38,494 nt of DNA from a virus. Below, piece after piece: positions 29,495 through 35,840 of the stretch (position 1 is the stretch's first letter; every line of letters starts with the position of its first letter). The stretch is from IMG/VR virus record IMGVR_UViG_3300027833_000110, positions 1-38,494 of that record; one strand, written 5' to 3'. The notes beneath the pieces are model-generated. The model was not told where the DNA came from, ran no database searches, and saw only the letters and a list, made by a program, of their open reading frames with translations. Both the position numbers and the translations under genes were made by a program.

Positions 29495-29995
29495 ATGGCA
29501 TATTCGGGCAGATACAAGGTAAAAAATCCAGAGAAGTATGAAGGTGACCACACTAAGGTTACCTATCGTTCTCTGTGGGAGAAACACGCATTTCGATGGG
29601 CGGATGATAATCCAGATTTGGCAAAGTGGTCTTCCGAAGAAGTTATTATACCATACTTATATGAAGTAGACAAGCGTTATCATAGATATTTTATGGATTT
29701 AAAGTTATCTTATAAGGATGGTAGAACGTACTTGGTCGAGATTAAACCTGAGAAGGAAACTAGGATACCAGCTGGTGACCGTAGGACTAGAAGATTCATA
29801 TCGGAAAGTATGACCTATGTTAAGAATATAAATAAGTGGGAAGCTGCAAATGTGTACGCACAAGACCGAGGATGGAAGTTCGTCATATGGACAGAGAAGA
29901 ACGAACCCCTGAAGAGTCTTATTCCCAAATCAACAAAACCCTTGAAACCGTTAGGCAAAACATTAAGACCTTTTAGGAAAAAACGTAAGAAATGA
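29495..29995 (+). CDS. 4: head completion nuclease-like protein gp4
   Basis: 166 residues (T4 gp4 has 150). YRSLWEKHAFRWADDNP, then YFMDLKLSYKDGRTYLVEIKP show the gp4/TnsA-like PD-(D/E)xK pattern with E29, D68, E82 and K84. These are the positions expected for a nuclease. T4 gp4 (gp50/65) joins filled heads and is required to make heads ready for tails. The C-terminus is very basic (KTLRPFRKKRKK), as for DNA binding. It is the first gene of the plus-strand late block, and the radical SAM gene starts inside its last codon (ATGA). Confidence 0.9.
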   Translation: MAYSGRYKVKNPEKYEGDHTKVTYRSLWEKHAFRWADDNPDLAKWSSEEVIIPYLYEVDKRYHRYFMDLKLSYKDGRTYLVEIKPEKETRIPAGDRRTRRFISESMTYVKNINKWEAANVYAQDRGWKFVIWTEKNEPLKSLIPKSTKPLKPLGKTLRPFRKKRKK

Positions 29996-31695
29996 ATCAT
30001 GCTTTAATTTTGACTGGGGCTAGTTTTTCATACCCCGAAGATTATCATATTACAGAAGTACCCGTAAGGGGAACAGGGGCACATAGAATTGCCTCACATA
30101 TGAGGGAGACTGGTGAGTGGGACATCGAAGTTTTAGACTTCGTAGATGCGTGGACTATCGAAGAACTAAAAGACTTTGTTGATAGTCGGGTTTCTAGTAG
30201 TACCAAGTGGATAGGGTTTAGTGTCTTCTTTACTTATTCACCTTTCAGTGAGTTGACCATTGTTACAAAACACAATGCGATAGCAAAATACGTAAAAGAA
30301 AAGTATCCGTGGATTAAGACTGTTGTCGGTGCCAATAAACTAGTGAATGTTGTACGTCATAGACATATGGATTACTATTCTATAGGTAACGGTGAACACG
30401 CAATAGTTGCCCTATGTGAGTACTTTGTCGGTAGAAATCCTGAACCTATTGTGAAGGTGATGACTAATCCACTCGACCTTATTGATATGCATGGGGTCAA
30501 GTTTAATATAATTGATTGTTTCAGGGACTATCCAGCATACCCACATAGGAATCCAAAAACCTCATATGAGGAACGAGACTTTATAAAGAGTCATGAAGTC
30601 TTGACCATGGAGTTGTCAAGAGGATGTATCTTTAAATGTACCTTCTGTGACTATGCACCGTTGGGTGTTAGGGGTGACAATAGTAGAGAGGTTGGTAACT
30701 TCAAAGAAGAACTTGTAGAGAACTATGAGAAGTGGGGTGTGACTCACTATTGTCTAGCTGACGAAACAGCCAATGCAAGTTCTGGTTACATATCAAAGTT
30801 TGCGGATGCAGTAAGAACACTACCCTTCCAACCACAGTTCCATGGATTTATTCGAGGAGACTTGTTCGTAAGACGAAAACAACAAGACTGGGATAATATG
30901 ATTGACATGGGATTCACAAGTCACTCTATGGGTCTAGAGACATTCAACCATGCAGCTGGTAAGTCTATTCACAAAGGTTTCTCCCCGTTACAATTACAAG
31001 AAGGACTTCTACAGGGAGAGGAATACTTTCGAAGTAACGTTCTGCCGGGCAATCATTACACGTGTACGATATCGATGATTGCGGGATTGCCACATGAGAC
31101 GTTTGAGTCTTTAGATAATACCGAGAGATGGTTGAATAAGTATTGGCAGAATCAGATTACAATGCATCCATTGTACATCTCACAACACGTTACTAATGGT
31201 ATCGATGCGGTGTCAGAAATAGAACGTGACCCCTCTAAGTATGGGTACACTTACAGAGAAATGGGTCTTTATGATAAAGCGTTTATGAGATTTGCAGACC
31301 ACAATGGCGAGTTTGCGTTCGAAGGTTATAGTCAGTGGGAATCACTATCAATCAAGGAAAAGTATAATCTGATTGATGTTGAAAACACTACAAAAGAAAT
31401 TCTAAAAGACAGGGCAGCGGAGACAAAGAGTCTAGTATGGGTGCATCCAAGTGGAGACTATGATTATATTGACATGGTTGAATGGGCGGCAAAATTCCAA
31501 AACAACCGAGTAATAGAACTAAATAGACCAGAGAGTCAGAGTGGTTGGCATATGGGTTGGTACAAACAACACGGGTACACTGATTTACGTGAGGTCTATA
31601 ACGGCAACCCACCAATCATAACATCATCCGATGTTGGCCGATATTATGATTTTATTGATAATTATAAAAAAGACAAGATGAATTGGTATAAATAG
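29992..31695 (+). CDS. radical SAM protein with B12-binding-like N-terminus
   Basis: 567 residues. C212, C216 and C219 form the CxxxCxxC cluster in RGCIFKCTFCDY. Upstream segments resemble the Rossmann cobalamin-binding domain seen in class B radical SAM methyltransferases and cyclases: KWIGFSVFFTYSP, IAKYVKEKYPWIKTVVGAN, MDYYSIGNGEHAIVAL. No DxHxxG B12-ligating His motif is visible, so cobalamin may not bind. Later SMGLETFNH and SMIAGLPHETFESL match the SAM-binding strands of the TIM barrel. It starts inside the gp4 stop and is followed by a late promoter sharing its stop codon. Substrate unknown; it could modify a virion protein, a tRNA or a cofactor. Confidence 0.85.
   Translation: MNHALILTGASFSYPEDYHITEVPVRGTGAHRIASHMRETGEWDIEVLDFVDAWTIEELKDFVDSRVSSSTKWIGFSVFFTYSPFSELTIVTKHNAIAKYVKEKYPWIKTVVGANKLVNVVRHRHMDYYSIGNGEHAIVALCEYFVGRNPEPIVKVMTNPLDLIDMHGVKFNIIDCFRDYPAYPHRNPKTSYEERDFIKSHEVLTMELSRGCIFKCTFCDYAPLGVRGDNSREVGNFKEELVENYEKWGVTHYCLADETANASSGYISKFADAVRTLPFQPQFHGFIRGDLFVRRKQQDWDNMIDMGFTSHSMGLETFNHAAGKSIHKGFSPLQLQEGLLQGEEYFRSNVLPGNHYTCTISMIAGLPHETFESLDNTERWLNKYWQNQITMHPLYISQHVTNGIDAVSEIERDPSKYGYTYREMGLYDKAFMRFADHNGEFAFEGYSQWESLSIKEKYNLIDVENTTKEILKDRAAETKSLVWVHPSGDYDYIDMVEWAAKFQNNRVIELNRPESQSGWHMGWYKQHGYTDLREVYNGNPPIITSSDVGRYYDFIDNYKKDKMNWYK
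31687..31694 (+). promoter_or_regulatory. T4-type late promoter abutting the next start codon
   Basis: The strand reads TATAAATAGAAGTATG. The core overlaps the stop codon of the radical SAM gene and lies exactly five bases before the ATG at 31700, so the transcript would begin on the start codon. This matches the gp25 arrangement at 15 of 16 bases. Confidence 0.7.
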
Positions 31696-31699
31696 AAGT

Positions 31700-32293
31700 A
31701 TGTCAAATATATTTAATAAATTAGAGTTACAAGCATTCCGTGCAGGAGTAACCCCCCGCACCAAGGAAAGTCGTGCGTGGTTCCAAAAGAAAGCATCTAA
31801 TATGCGTTCCATCAATCGTGAAGCATTGATGAAAGAGGAACAGATAAAGAGTCGTGCGAAGAGTGGTGTTGTGGGAACAATGCAGATGTTCTTCTATGAC
31901 CCCAAGACTAAGGACACACTTCCGTATTACGATTTGTTCCCCTTGGTTATTGTTGTTGGCCCTGCAAAGGGTGGGTTCTATGGATTGAACCTTCACTACC
32001 TTCCACCTATCCTTCGTGCAAAGATGTTGGATGCGTTGATGGAGACTTCGGCTAGTAACAAGACTGACGATGCAAAGTTTGCTATCAACTATAAGAAATT
32101 ACAGAGTATTGCGAAGTTGCGATACTACGAACCGTGTTTCAAACATTACTTGACAGCACACGTCAAGAGTAAGTTTGCGGAAGTACCACAACCTGAGTGG
32201 GAGATTGCAACATTCTTACCAACCGCACAGTTCCGTAAGGCAAACTCTCAGAAGGTGTACTACGATTCAAGACAAAAGATAGGTAAAAGTTAA
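31700..32293 (+). CDS. conserved T4-like phage protein, unknown
   Basis: 197 residues. The core (MFFYDPKTKDTLPYYDLFPL then GGFYGLNLHYLPPILRAKML, residues 63-109) is a pattern I know from marine T4-like phages without an assigned function. A basic N-terminus (KAGVTPRTKE-like; RTKESRAWFQKKASN) could bind DNA or a partner. It lies between the radical SAM gene and gp54, so a role in tail or head completion is possible; a DNA-end protector (gp2) like role is only speculation. Its end shares one base with gp54 (TAATG). No clear Shine-Dalgarno precedes the start. Confidence 0.65.
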   Translation: MSNIFNKLELQAFRAGVTPRTKESRAWFQKKASNMRSINREALMKEEQIKSRAKSGVVGTMQMFFYDPKTKDTLPYYDLFPLVIVVGPAKGGFYGLNLHYLPPILRAKMLDALMETSASNKTDDAKFAINYKKLQSIAKLRYYEPCFKHYLTAHVKSKFAEVPQPEWEIATFLPTAQFRKANSQKVYYDSRQKIGKS

Positions 32294-32994
32294 TGGGATT
32301 CGCAATCGATGACTTCAAGTCACAGGTAGGTCAAGGCGGTGGTATAGCGATGGGGAATCTATATAAGATTTTCCTACCACCTATTAGGGGTGACGCAAGA
32401 GCGTTAAACCTGTTGTGTAAAGCAACATCTCTGCCAGGCAGACAAATCCTATCAAACGAAAAAACGATGGGTCTTCACACTACCAAGATGGCATACGGTT
32501 ATGCAGTTGAAGATGTAACACTGACCTTTCATTGTCTTAATGATATGGAAGTCAGACAGTACTTCGAGACATGGCAGAACCTTGCGGTCAATCAAGAGAC
32601 CCAAGAGATTGGTTACTTTAACGAGTACACCCATCCAGTGATTATTCAACATATTAAGAAGAGCGCATCTTTCCCCATCAAAAAGAAAAAGTTATTTGAT
32701 TCTGGTAAGATACCTTCCTCTATACGTGGAAGATTACCAAGACTAGGGCCAATCGACCTTGCACAAGGCGAGTTAGATTTAAATTTGGTATTCGGTGATG
32801 ATATCACTTATACTTTAGTCCTAGATAAAGCATACCCAACATCATTGAGTGCAATTGAGTTGAGTGATGACGGACAGTTACTTGAGGTTACGGTACAACT
32901 ATCGTACAAGAATTGGAAGTCCAAAGACGGTGACAACAAAGGCAGCGACTTTATACAAGGTCTAGCTGGTGAGTTGATTAGAAAATTTTTATAA
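32293..32994 (+). CDS. 54: baseplate tail tube initiator gp54
   Basis: 233 residues (T4 gp54 has 320). LLCKATSLPGRQILSNEKT, then VEDVTLTFHCLNDMEVRQYFETWQNL show the tail-tube fold shared by gp54, gp48 and gp19, and LEVTVQLSYKNWKSK is the closing strand of that fold. T4 gp54 polymerises on gp48 and starts gp19 tube. The neighbours gp26 and tape measure support gp54 rather than gp19, although the short length leaves a divergent tube protein possible. AGGT precedes the ATG. Confidence 0.75.
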   Translation: MGFAIDDFKSQVGQGGGIAMGNLYKIFLPPIRGDARALNLLCKATSLPGRQILSNEKTMGLHTTKMAYGYAVEDVTLTFHCLNDMEVRQYFETWQNLAVNQETQEIGYFNEYTHPVIIQHIKKSASFPIKKKKLFDSGKIPSSIRGRLPRLGPIDLAQGELDLNLVFGDDITYTLVLDKAYPTSLSAIELSDDGQLLEVTVQLSYKNWKSKDGDNKGSDFIQGLAGELIRKFL

Positions 32995-33020: not shown

Positions 33021-33722
33021 ATGGCATTACCCAAGTTAAATAGTAACCCCAAGTATGAGATGACAATCCCATCAACACAACAGGGCGTAAGATTCCGTCC
33101 ATACTTAGTCAAGGAAGAGAAAGTTCTTCTTATGGCATTTGAAAGTCAAGACACGGTTCAGGCAATGAAAGCAATCATTGATACAATCGTAGTGTGTGTT
33201 GATGATAAGATTGTTGGTGCAGACCTTACCACGTTTGATGTTGAATATATGTTTACCAAACTTCGCAGTAAATCTGTAGGTGAACGAAGTAACATTAGTA
33301 TTGCCTGTACGGAATGTGATGAGAAGAACGAAGTATCTATTAACATTGATGAACTTGAGATTGTACTTGACAACCCGTCACAGACTATTGAACTACAGAA
33401 AGATGTTCATGTAGAGATGGGATATCCTTCAGCGAAAGTGTTGATGGATATGAAAGAAGGCCTTTCACAGACCGAACAATTGATTGAACTAGTCATATAC
33501 AGTATCAAGAAAATTATGACTGAAGACGAACAAATCGATGCAAAGGATGTGTCACAGAAAGATTTACGTGAATTTGTTGACTCAATGACGGGTGAACAGT
33601 TCAAGAACATTAGTGAATTTGTGGCGACAATTCCAACATTGACTAAAGATATTGATTTCACGTGTAATAAATGTGATACAGAGAACACACATACTTTATC
33701 GGGGTTTACTGATTTTTTTTAG
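33021..33722 (+). CDS. 26: baseplate hub assembly protein gp26 (zero frame)
   Basis: 233 residues. The start (YEMTIPSTQQGVRFRPYLVKEEKVLLMAFES) is the signature of the T4 base plate family (gp26, PF12322). Two CxxC pairs (C96/C99 in ACTECD and C215/C218 in TCNKCD) could bind zinc. T4 gp26 takes part in hub assembly with gp51 and gp28. The stop TAG lies in a run of eight T (33713-33720), and the -1 frame is open for 64 further codons, so this protein is probably made along with a longer frameshifted form. AGAGAG lies before the start, with a 26-base gap after gp54. Confidence 0.85.
   Translation: MALPKLNSNPKYEMTIPSTQQGVRFRPYLVKEEKVLLMAFESQDTVQAMKAIIDTIVVCVDDKIVGADLTTFDVEYMFTKLRSKSVGERSNISIACTECDEKNEVSINIDELEIVLDNPSQTIELQKDVHVEMGYPSAKVLMDMKEGLSQTEQLIELVIYSIKKIMTEDEQIDAKDVSQKDLREFVDSMTGEQFKNISEFVATIPTLTKDIDFTCNKCDTENTHTLSGFTDFF
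33713..33720 (+). other. slippery T8 run, predicted -1 frameshift site
   Basis: The zero-frame codons are GAT TTT TTT TAG. A simultaneous -1 slip on T-TTT-TTT avoids the stop and continues with TTA GTA AAC. A six-pair A/U-rich hairpin (TGATAA-ACTT-TTATCA at 33744-33759) lies 24 bases downstream, further than usual for a stimulator. Confidence 0.7.
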
Positions 33723-33913
33723 TAAACCTTTCCCATGATAGTCTGATAAACTTTTATCAAACTAATTTTTCGTTAATGCAACATCATCACTATAGTTTAA
33801 CAGAACTAGAAGCGATGATACCGTGGGAAAGGGAGGTATACGTTTCTCTACTTACAGATTACATAAAAGAAGAGAACGACAGAATTAAAACAGAACAAAA
33901 AAGGACAGGGTAG
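33719..33913 (+). CDS. 51: -1 frame extension of gp26, gp51-like
   Basis: From the slip site the -1 frame encodes 64 residues with no stop until TAG at 33911: NLSHDSLINFYQTNFSLMQH, then HYSLTELEAMIPWEREVYVSLL and a charged end. The segment SLTELEAMIPWER is a pattern of the gp26/gp51 hub assembly proteins. No Shine-Dalgarno serves the internal ATG at 33776, and conserved-looking sequence begins well before it, so frameshifted fusion (297 residues in all) is more likely than independent initiation. The frame ends four bases before the tape-measure ATG. In lambda-like tails the G/GT pair has the same position and chaperones the tape measure; that parallel is my inference. Confidence 0.7.
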   Translation, partial: LVNLSHDSLINFYQTNFSLMQHHHYSLTELEAMIPWEREVYVSLLTDYIKEENDRIKTEQKRTG

Positions 33914-33917
33914 ATAG

Positions 33918-35840
33918 ATGGCAGAAGATATGCATCCAGCAAAGGGCTCAGGTAGAGATAGTGATTCGCAGAAGAACCTTCTGCGTAAGGTCATTAATAC
34001 TCTTAATAAAAGTTCTGAAAAGGCAGAACTTGGCGCTGTCCATATTAGTGAAACTGTCACTGATAAGGTTGACGAGCTCATAGGTGTATATGTCAAGACT
34101 AATGCCAAGGATGAGAAGAAGGAGAACTCTAAAAAGGGTGACGCTGCGGAAGAAAAGAAAGAAAGAATGACCGTTTTCCAAACACTCCTTAACCTACCCG
34201 AAGCATTAAAAACTGCTGCTGGTTCTGCAAAGGACAAAGGTAGTAACCTAATGGGTTCTCTTGGCAAGAAGGTCAAAGGATTCACTGGTATGTTGGGTAA
34301 ACTTGCTATGGGTGCAGGCGCAGGTATTCTTGCGATTGTTGCTGTTGCTGGTTTAATGTCATCAGGAATCATCGATGCAGAGAAGGTTAAGAAATCTGTT
34401 CTTACCTTATTGAGTATTGGTGATGAGATGTCGATGAAAGGTTTGGCAACTCTCGCATTCTTTTCGCCAGCCATGAAACGACTGGGAACGGGACTCGCTT
34501 TCTTTGGTGCTGGTAGTGCCATTGCGGGTATGTCTAACGCACTGTTGGAGAAGTTCGGTGCTGGTAACTGGGCACAAGGTGTTAAGGATAACGTCCTCAC
34601 TTTACTGAGTATTGGTGATAGTGCTGGACTCAAAGATATTGCAACACTCTTAGCATTCCAACCAGCAATGATTGCGTTAGCAACGGGACTTGCTGCGTTT
34701 GGTGCTGGTAGTGCTGTCGCTGGTATGTCTGACGCACTGTTGAAGAAGTTTGGTTCTGGTGGTTGGGCAGAAACAACAAAACAGAACGTACTTACGTTAT
34801 TGTCTATCGGTGATGAGTTAACTGCACCCCGAATATTAGCAATCGCTGCCGTTCCTGTCGCACTGATAGCACTTGGTGCGGGTCTTGCTGTATTCGGTGC
34901 CGGTTCTGGTATCGCATCTCTGACTACTAGTACTGACTGGGCAGACAATGTCAAGTATTCGGTATTAACCCTATTAAGTATTCCAGATGAAGCGGGTGGT
35001 AACATTGGTATGCTCGCAAGTGGCGGAACAGTGGCTATTGCACTTGGGGTTATAGGTGCGGGTCTTCTTTTATTTGGTGCTGGTTCTGCTATTAACTCTC
35101 TTGTCAAAGACACTAAATGGTCAGGACGAGTAAAGACAAATGTATTAACCCTATTATCTATTGCGGATGATGTAGGTGATGACTTTGTCAAGAAGTCAAA
35201 TAGTGTTGCAACTGGACTGGCCAAGCTTGGTGGTAGTCTTGCTGTATTCGGTGTCGGCACATTTGTCTCTAGTCTTGGTGCAGCAGCATCTGGTATACTA
35301 GACTTCTTTACGCCAGGCAAAGGCCCAGTTGACATAATGTTAACACTCGCAGACCGTGAAGTAGAGATTAACAAAGCAGCAGGTGGTGTTACTAAACTTG
35401 CGAATGCAATGACTAAGTTATCTGGTATTAGTTTCAACGGTGGTAACATTGACATCGAAGGGATGTTGAATGACTTTGGTCACCTACCCGCATTACTGGA
35501 TGGTCTTGCAAATGGTTCTCCTAATGGGCCCATTGAGTTTGAAACAAGTGGTATAAACAAGAAGATAGACTTTAAGAGGGGTATCCTTGACCCATCCCTG
35601 AAAGTACCAGAGATTGCGGCAACAATGAACCACGTAAACTCTGTACTTGGATTGGGGACACCAAGAAATTCAACACAACAAGCAACCTCTTCCGAGAATG
35701 CAGAGATGAAATCTGCTAGTAGTGGTGGGACTGTTGCTGTCAATACGGGAGGAAACACCACTAACAACACTAGTTCAAGTAGTGCTGTGGCAGTGGTTGA
35801 CGCATCTCCTGCTACGGATGACCTAGACAGGGTTGCATAA
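33918..35840 (+). CDS. 29: tape measure protein, gp29-like
   Basis: 640 residues (T4 gp29 has 590). A helical charged N-terminus is followed by a hydrophobic Ala/Gly segment at 125-148 (GAGAGILAIVAVAGLMSSG) and five tandem repeats of 58-65 residues, each starting V/T-K-x-x-VLTLLSI (157, 222, 287, 345, 405) and ending FGAGSAIA-like. A weaker sixth start is at 471 (VDIMLTLADRE). The C-terminus is Thr/Ser/Asn-rich. Length, Ala/Gly-rich helices, position after gp26/51 and before the terminator, and repeats all fit a tail-length ruler. Identity with T4 gp29 is by context; AGGACAGGG precedes the start. Confidence 0.75.
   Translation: MAEDMHPAKGSGRDSDSQKNLLRKVINTLNKSSEKAELGAVHISETVTDKVDELIGVYVKTNAKDEKKENSKKGDAAEEKKERMTVFQTLLNLPEALKTAAGSAKDKGSNLMGSLGKKVKGFTGMLGKLAMGAGAGILAIVAVAGLMSSGIIDAEKVKKSVLTLLSIGDEMSMKGLATLAFFSPAMKRLGTGLAFFGAGSAIAGMSNALLEKFGAGNWAQGVKDNVLTLLSIGDSAGLKDIATLLAFQPAMIALATGLAAFGAGSAVAGMSDALLKKFGSGGWAETTKQNVLTLLSIGDELTAPRILAIAAVPVALIALGAGLAVFGAGSGIASLTTSTDWADNVKYSVLTLLSIPDEAGGNIGMLASGGTVAIALGVIGAGLLLFGAGSAINSLVKDTKWSGRVKTNVLTLLSIADDVGDDFVKKSNSVATGLAKLGGSLAVFGVGTFVSSLGAAASGILDFFTPGKGPVDIMLTLADREVEINKAAGGVTKLANAMTKLSGISFNGGNIDIEGMLNDFGHLPALLDGLANGSPNGPIEFETSGINKKIDFKRGILDPSLKVPEIAATMNHVNSVLGLGTPRNSTQQATSSENAEMKSASSGGTVAVNTGGNTTNNTSSSSAVAVVDASPATDDLDRVA
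34386..35297 (+). repeat. five ~60-residue repeats in the tape measure
   Basis: Repeat starts at residues 157, 222, 287, 345 and 405 share VLTLLSIxDE and a distal GLAxFGAGSAIA motif. The first two are closest in sequence (both have GMSNALLEKFG/GMSDALLKKFG), which suggests recent duplication. Units would change tail length in steps if the protein is a ruler. Confidence 0.8.

Follow-up and report, generated by a model that had tools for sequence, protein, structure and literature searches.

Phages lambda (G and GT) and P2 (E and E') use −1 slips to make two tail-assembly chaperones from genes just upstream of the tape measure gene. In Escherichia coli dnaX, the heptamer A_AAA_AAG is accompanied by a Shine-Dalgarno (SD)-like element about 10 nt upstream and by a downstream structure. 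For T4-like phages, a 2022 paper in Virology by Vladimirov and colleagues reportedly proposed that several groups use frameshifting, whereas T4 has 26 and 51 as separate genes. This paper, an assignment of T4-like tail chaperone genes, is listed in the references of PMC10885494 and PMC12846349, and the latter cites it in connection with polyT slip sites in the TAC-N genes of T4-like phages. In the chaperone loci of Vandenendeviridae and Andersonviridae, the −1 frame is open in all genomes and a conserved T-rich motif ends TAC-N (PMC12846349). Since the 2022 publication covers the T4-like tail chaperone genes, the locus described here is not a new kind of system; the two-form arrangement in T4-like phages is already published, and our locus is a further, uncultivated marine member.

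The sequence analyzed here (hereafter the window) is an IMG/VR virus record of 38,494 bases, derived from an uncultivated marine T4-like phage. Like lambda G/GT and P2 E/E', the locus very probably has a short form and a −1 extended form; the gene just after them is a presumed tape measure gene (Table 1). Unlike those systems, it has a different heptamer, no sequence similarity to their chaperones was shown, and the gp26 family carries an extra zinc-ribbon-like Cys region. An open −1 frame and a T-rich end are common to the window and the Vandenendeviridae and Andersonviridae loci, but the motif there is GTTTTT and the proteins are different.

Table 1 Features of the gp26 locus and its surroundings, numbered from the first base of the window
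Feature	Coordinates	Strand	Basis
Tail tube-like protein, upstream context	32293-32994	+	phrog_45 (tail tube), E 1.3e-33
gp26, short form (TAC-N), 233 aa, zero frame	33021-33722	+	PF12322, phrog_150, AlphaFold2 model, chaperone structure matches
GGGG, weak counterpart of the relatives' SD-like element	33701-33704	+	Family signal, duplex energy; putative function
Slippery heptamer T_TTT_TTT, in phase with gp26	33713-33719	+	In phase in 79/79 and 80/80 loci
−1 extension, gp51-like (TAC-C), 64 codons and stop	33719-33913	+	phrog_634, coding signature, alignment A3, helical model
Predicted hairpin, 19 nt 3' of the heptamer	33739-33764	+	Folding energy, family-wide structure excess; putative role
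Presumed tape measure gene, 640 aa	33918-35840	+	Position and character

Slip site and its conservation

In the zero frame, gp26 of the window ends with GGG TTT ACT GAT TTT TTT TAG, where the eight-T run occupies positions 33713-33720 and the stop codon positions 33720-33722. The −1 frame, whose first codon is TTA at 33719, has 64 sense codons before a TAG at 33911-33913, and four bases separate this stop from the next ORF, whose ATG is at 33918. Reading in the +1 frame is shut after five codons. A first-pass annotation, made from the letters alone, had claimed the T-run ending of gp26, an open −1 frame with hub-assembly-type sequence and the early stop in the +1 frame, and all three were reproduced.

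Homologues were collected by scanning viral contigs with the gp26 alignment and adding annotated phages, which gave 95 loci. The 79 loci with less than 70% mutual identity were analyzed for the slip site as representatives and span marine phages, cyanophages, Otagovirus, Menderavirus, and Rhizobium and Vibrio phages. T4 and four Ackermannviridae-like homologues, all without the site, were inspected outside this set. An in-frame T_TTT_TTN was present ahead of the gp26 stop in 79/79 representatives, and the distance to the stop was 7 or 10 nt in almost every one. The first Phe codon of the site was TTT in every representative, and the codon before the two Phe codons (GAT, AGT, TCT, AAT or GCT) always ended in T. 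Only the seventh base of the heptamer varied (T in 41, C in 30, A in 6 and G in 2). Under the codon usage of these genes, and ignoring shared ancestry, the chance of 79 in-phase heptamers is 10^-28.9; elsewhere in these genes, the pattern occurred in 7 of 144 F-[FL] pairs.

A second scan used the extension alone, so that loci were not selected via gp26. It returned 80 loci, 51 of them new, and all 80 carried the in-frame heptamer, although locus counts of this kind represent non-independent events. One locus (L016) has a short extension, which runs off the contig end. Because the heptamer was in phase in 79/79 representatives and in 80/80 extension-selected loci, a chance origin of the slip site is excluded. 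The first-pass annotation had named relatives lacking the T-run or carrying stops in the −1 frame as refuting its claim; apart from the T4 group and the four Ackermannviridae-like homologues, every locus kept the T-run and an open −1 frame.

In four loci from Ackermannviridae and relatives (L094, L097, L100 and L101), a gp51-like −1 frame follows gp26, and the T-run heptamer is missing. In two of them, L097 and L100, the gp26 stop instead overlaps a start codon as TAATG, which suggests another route to a long or second product.

The −1 extension and competing explanations

The peptide encoded by the −1 frame of the window matched phrog_634, 'baseplate hub assembly catalyst', with an E-value of 9.1e-28. 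It also matched positions 235-278 of the 282-position gp26 profile phrog_150 (E 5.7e-7), and since this match lies at the end of a gp26 profile, some family members read gp26 into the gp51 segment in one frame. Over 78 loci, the entropy of the −1 frame was coding-like, with values of 1.06, 0.63 and 1.48 at codon positions 1, 2 and 3, respectively. The extension was modelled as helices, with a pLDDT of 82.8.

We consider it highly probable (about 0.9) that the locus encodes a tail-assembly chaperone pair by −1 frameshifting, namely TAC-N (gp26) and TAC-NC (gp26-gp51). With the heptamer in 79/79 and 80/80 loci, the lambda G/GT-like slip put forward in the first-pass annotation is still the best reading. 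We infer the occurrence of slippage, its rate and the binding of the products to the tape measure protein along the following lines. Most ribosomes would halt at the UAG and release gp26, the 233-aa TAC-N. A minority would step back one base while both their P and A sites, placed on U_UUU_UUU, hold tRNA-Phe, and would read on in the −1 frame, yielding a 297-aa gp26-gp51 fusion, TAC-NC. As the tail is assembled, the two forms would bind the product of the presumed tape measure gene just downstream.

An improbable alternative is that gp51 is a separate gene, expressed from an internal start or by termination-reinitiation after the gp26 stop, with the T-run being incidental. Public phage records do list gp51 as a CDS of its own, with starts differing between phages, and in some relatives the gp26 stop is part of TAATG or TGATG. 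However, the first ATG usually lies at codon 19-20 (codon 20 in the window) and lacks a good ribosome site. As had been claimed for the internal ATG, no start among the first 26 codons of the extension in the window had a scoring Shine-Dalgarno match, and across the family loci none of the internal starts in the extension had a ribosome site that reached −6 kcal/mol; for comparison, the median for the starts of gp26 itself was −5.85 kcal/mol. Moreover, the codons ahead of the usual ATG are already under selection in the −1 frame, the entropy of its first 17 codons being coding-like at 0.94/0.70/1.43, and a separate gp51 leaves no reason for the retention of the heptamer.

Even less probable is slippage of RNA polymerase on the T-run, with mixed transcripts encoding both forms. 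The T-run of the window is eight bases long, and long homopolymers can cause transcriptional slippage, but 38 of the 79 representatives have exactly six T, all phased T|TTT|TTN as tandem tRNA slippage requires. This constant phase in exact six-T runs is not needed by a slipping polymerase, which makes transcriptional slippage unlikely. Homopolymers also attract sequencing errors, and the T4 long form is one in-frame gene, so we also considered that the break might be an artifact of sequencing or assembly, or the remains of a fusion gene in decay. This explanation, to which we give next to no weight, is refuted by the conservation of the split: the same break occurs in more than 100 distinct contigs and also in isolate genomes, with a T-run of 6, 7 or 8, and the distance from the first base of the heptamer to the stop is 7, 10, 16, 31 or 34 nt. 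Under the frameshift reading, gp51 in the window and in most related marine phages should be annotated as the shifted end of gp26, and a small separate gp51 gene with an arbitrary start is the wrong annotation for these phages.

Candidate RNA elements around the slip site

Sequence signals resembling those of dnaX, an SD-like element ahead of the heptamer and a structure behind it, are present in the family and allow concrete RNA elements to be named as candidate stimulators. A Shine-Dalgarno core 5' of the heptamer was found in 67/79 representatives and in 45/51 new loci, compared with a background of 13%, and mostly ended 9-11 nt before the heptamer. A conserved [EKR]-G pair explains much of this signal, but codon choice contributes as well, with a duplex energy of −6.0 compared with −5.2 for synonymous shuffles and a stronger duplex in 56/79 loci. 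The element in the window is weak, consisting of GGGG only, with a duplex energy of −6.2 compared with −3.2 for synonymous shuffles.

Downstream of the heptamer, the RNA at about +12 to +57 was more stably folded than its synonymous shuffles (z averaged −1.36 and was negative in 59/78 loci), with no folding excess past +60 in the same 78-locus comparison. The stem arms lie at about +18-29 and +33-44, and the hairpin predicted in the window has a folding energy of −6.7 kcal/mol. The excess was repeated on 48 new loci (z −1.40, below zero in 35/48) and was absent in five gp51 genes of the T4 group (z 0.04, −0.68, 0.31, −1.05 and −0.08). The stem is farther from the heptamer than usual stimulators: in contrast to dnaX, where the structure is closer, it starts about 19 nt downstream in the family of the window, and its register is not conserved. 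A single conserved, covarying hairpin was rejected, as a comparison of 77 loci brought out no shared helix register.

We tentatively propose, at somewhat less than even odds, that the slip in cyanophages and marine T4-like phages may be tuned by the SD-like element, T_TTT_TTN and a hairpin about 19-45 nt downstream that is retained as structure without fixed pairing, and that the T4 group, whose long form is encoded by a separate gene, may lack this arrangement. In the literature compared, which covers the 2022 Virology paper by title and citation, we found neither an SD-like element ending 9-11 nt before the heptamer nor a hairpin under selection that starts about 19 nt after it.

Relation to T4 gp26 and gp51, and neighboring genes

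The gp26 protein of the window matched PF12322 (E 1.6e-54, 185 bits against a cut-off of 24.5) and phrog_150 (E 2.9e-56). Its sequence had no match among solved structures. The AlphaFold2 model was confident (pLDDT 87.8), and a Foldseek search of this model against the PDB gave no significant match, the highest-probability entry being the HK97 tail assembly chaperone 2ob9 (0.63). When the Foldseek candidates were realigned, HK97 gp13 (2ob9) ranked first, with a Z-score of 7.1 over 84 residues and an rmsd of 4.0, covering gp26 residues 1-88. Bacillus subtilis YqbN was second (Z 6.6), and the third candidate reached only 3.5. Both HK97 gp13 and YqbN are tail assembly chaperones (PMC9603447). A Z-score of about 7 is moderate, but it is telling that both top matches come from the expected family, and the model points to a chaperone-like fold for gp26 residues 1-88.

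Residues 1-201 of T4 gp51 (249 aa) cover the entire gp26 Pfam model, and the protein matches phrog_150 nearly end to end. It also aligned with the joined product of the window across the junction, with a score of 142, compared with a maximum of 65 in 300 shuffles. T4 gp26, on the other hand, aligned with the short form up to the slip point, where GLKEFF in T4 corresponds to GFTDFF in the window. Because T4 gp51 aligns across the junction and T4 gp26 with the short form, T4 appears, as judged from these alignments, to encode both forms in separate genes, the long form being made in frame. Unlike in the window, the two T4 genes lie on opposite strands and there is no slip site. The link from T4 gp26/gp51 to the tail chaperones, suggested in the first-pass annotation, therefore holds up, with T4 gp51 as a gp26-like domain plus extension and the fold matching HK97 gp13 and YqbN; both fold and sequence thus tie the T4 hub-assembly genes 26 and 51 to the tail chaperone system at large. 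In one T4-like genome (L195, 1501-2246), gp51 loses its frame after codon 120, near TTCAAAAACCCATAG, and resumes in another frame, which reflects either a sequencing error or a real split.

The ORF downstream of the extension had no match in Pfam, PHROGs or phage tblastn. Its product contains hydrophobic segments and a repeat of about 60-65 aa, starting with VLTLLSI, in five diverged copies. In S-CAM7 and Vibrio D525, the gene in the corresponding position has a weak match to tape-measure PHROGs. The extension had been described as lying directly before the tape measure; the adjoining ORF is indeed there, its ATG following at once, and its identity as the tape measure is presumed from position and character. 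In 11 loci (L050, L054, L055, L057, L059, L060, L063, L066, L072, L074 and L085), a small gene of about 104-127 aa directly follows the gp51 extension. These small genes are of more than one sequence type, and the other loci have a long downstream gene at this place. In the window, a 567-aa Radical SAM protein (PF04055, E 5e-7; 29992-31695) is encoded beside the DNA end protector gene within the tail cluster.
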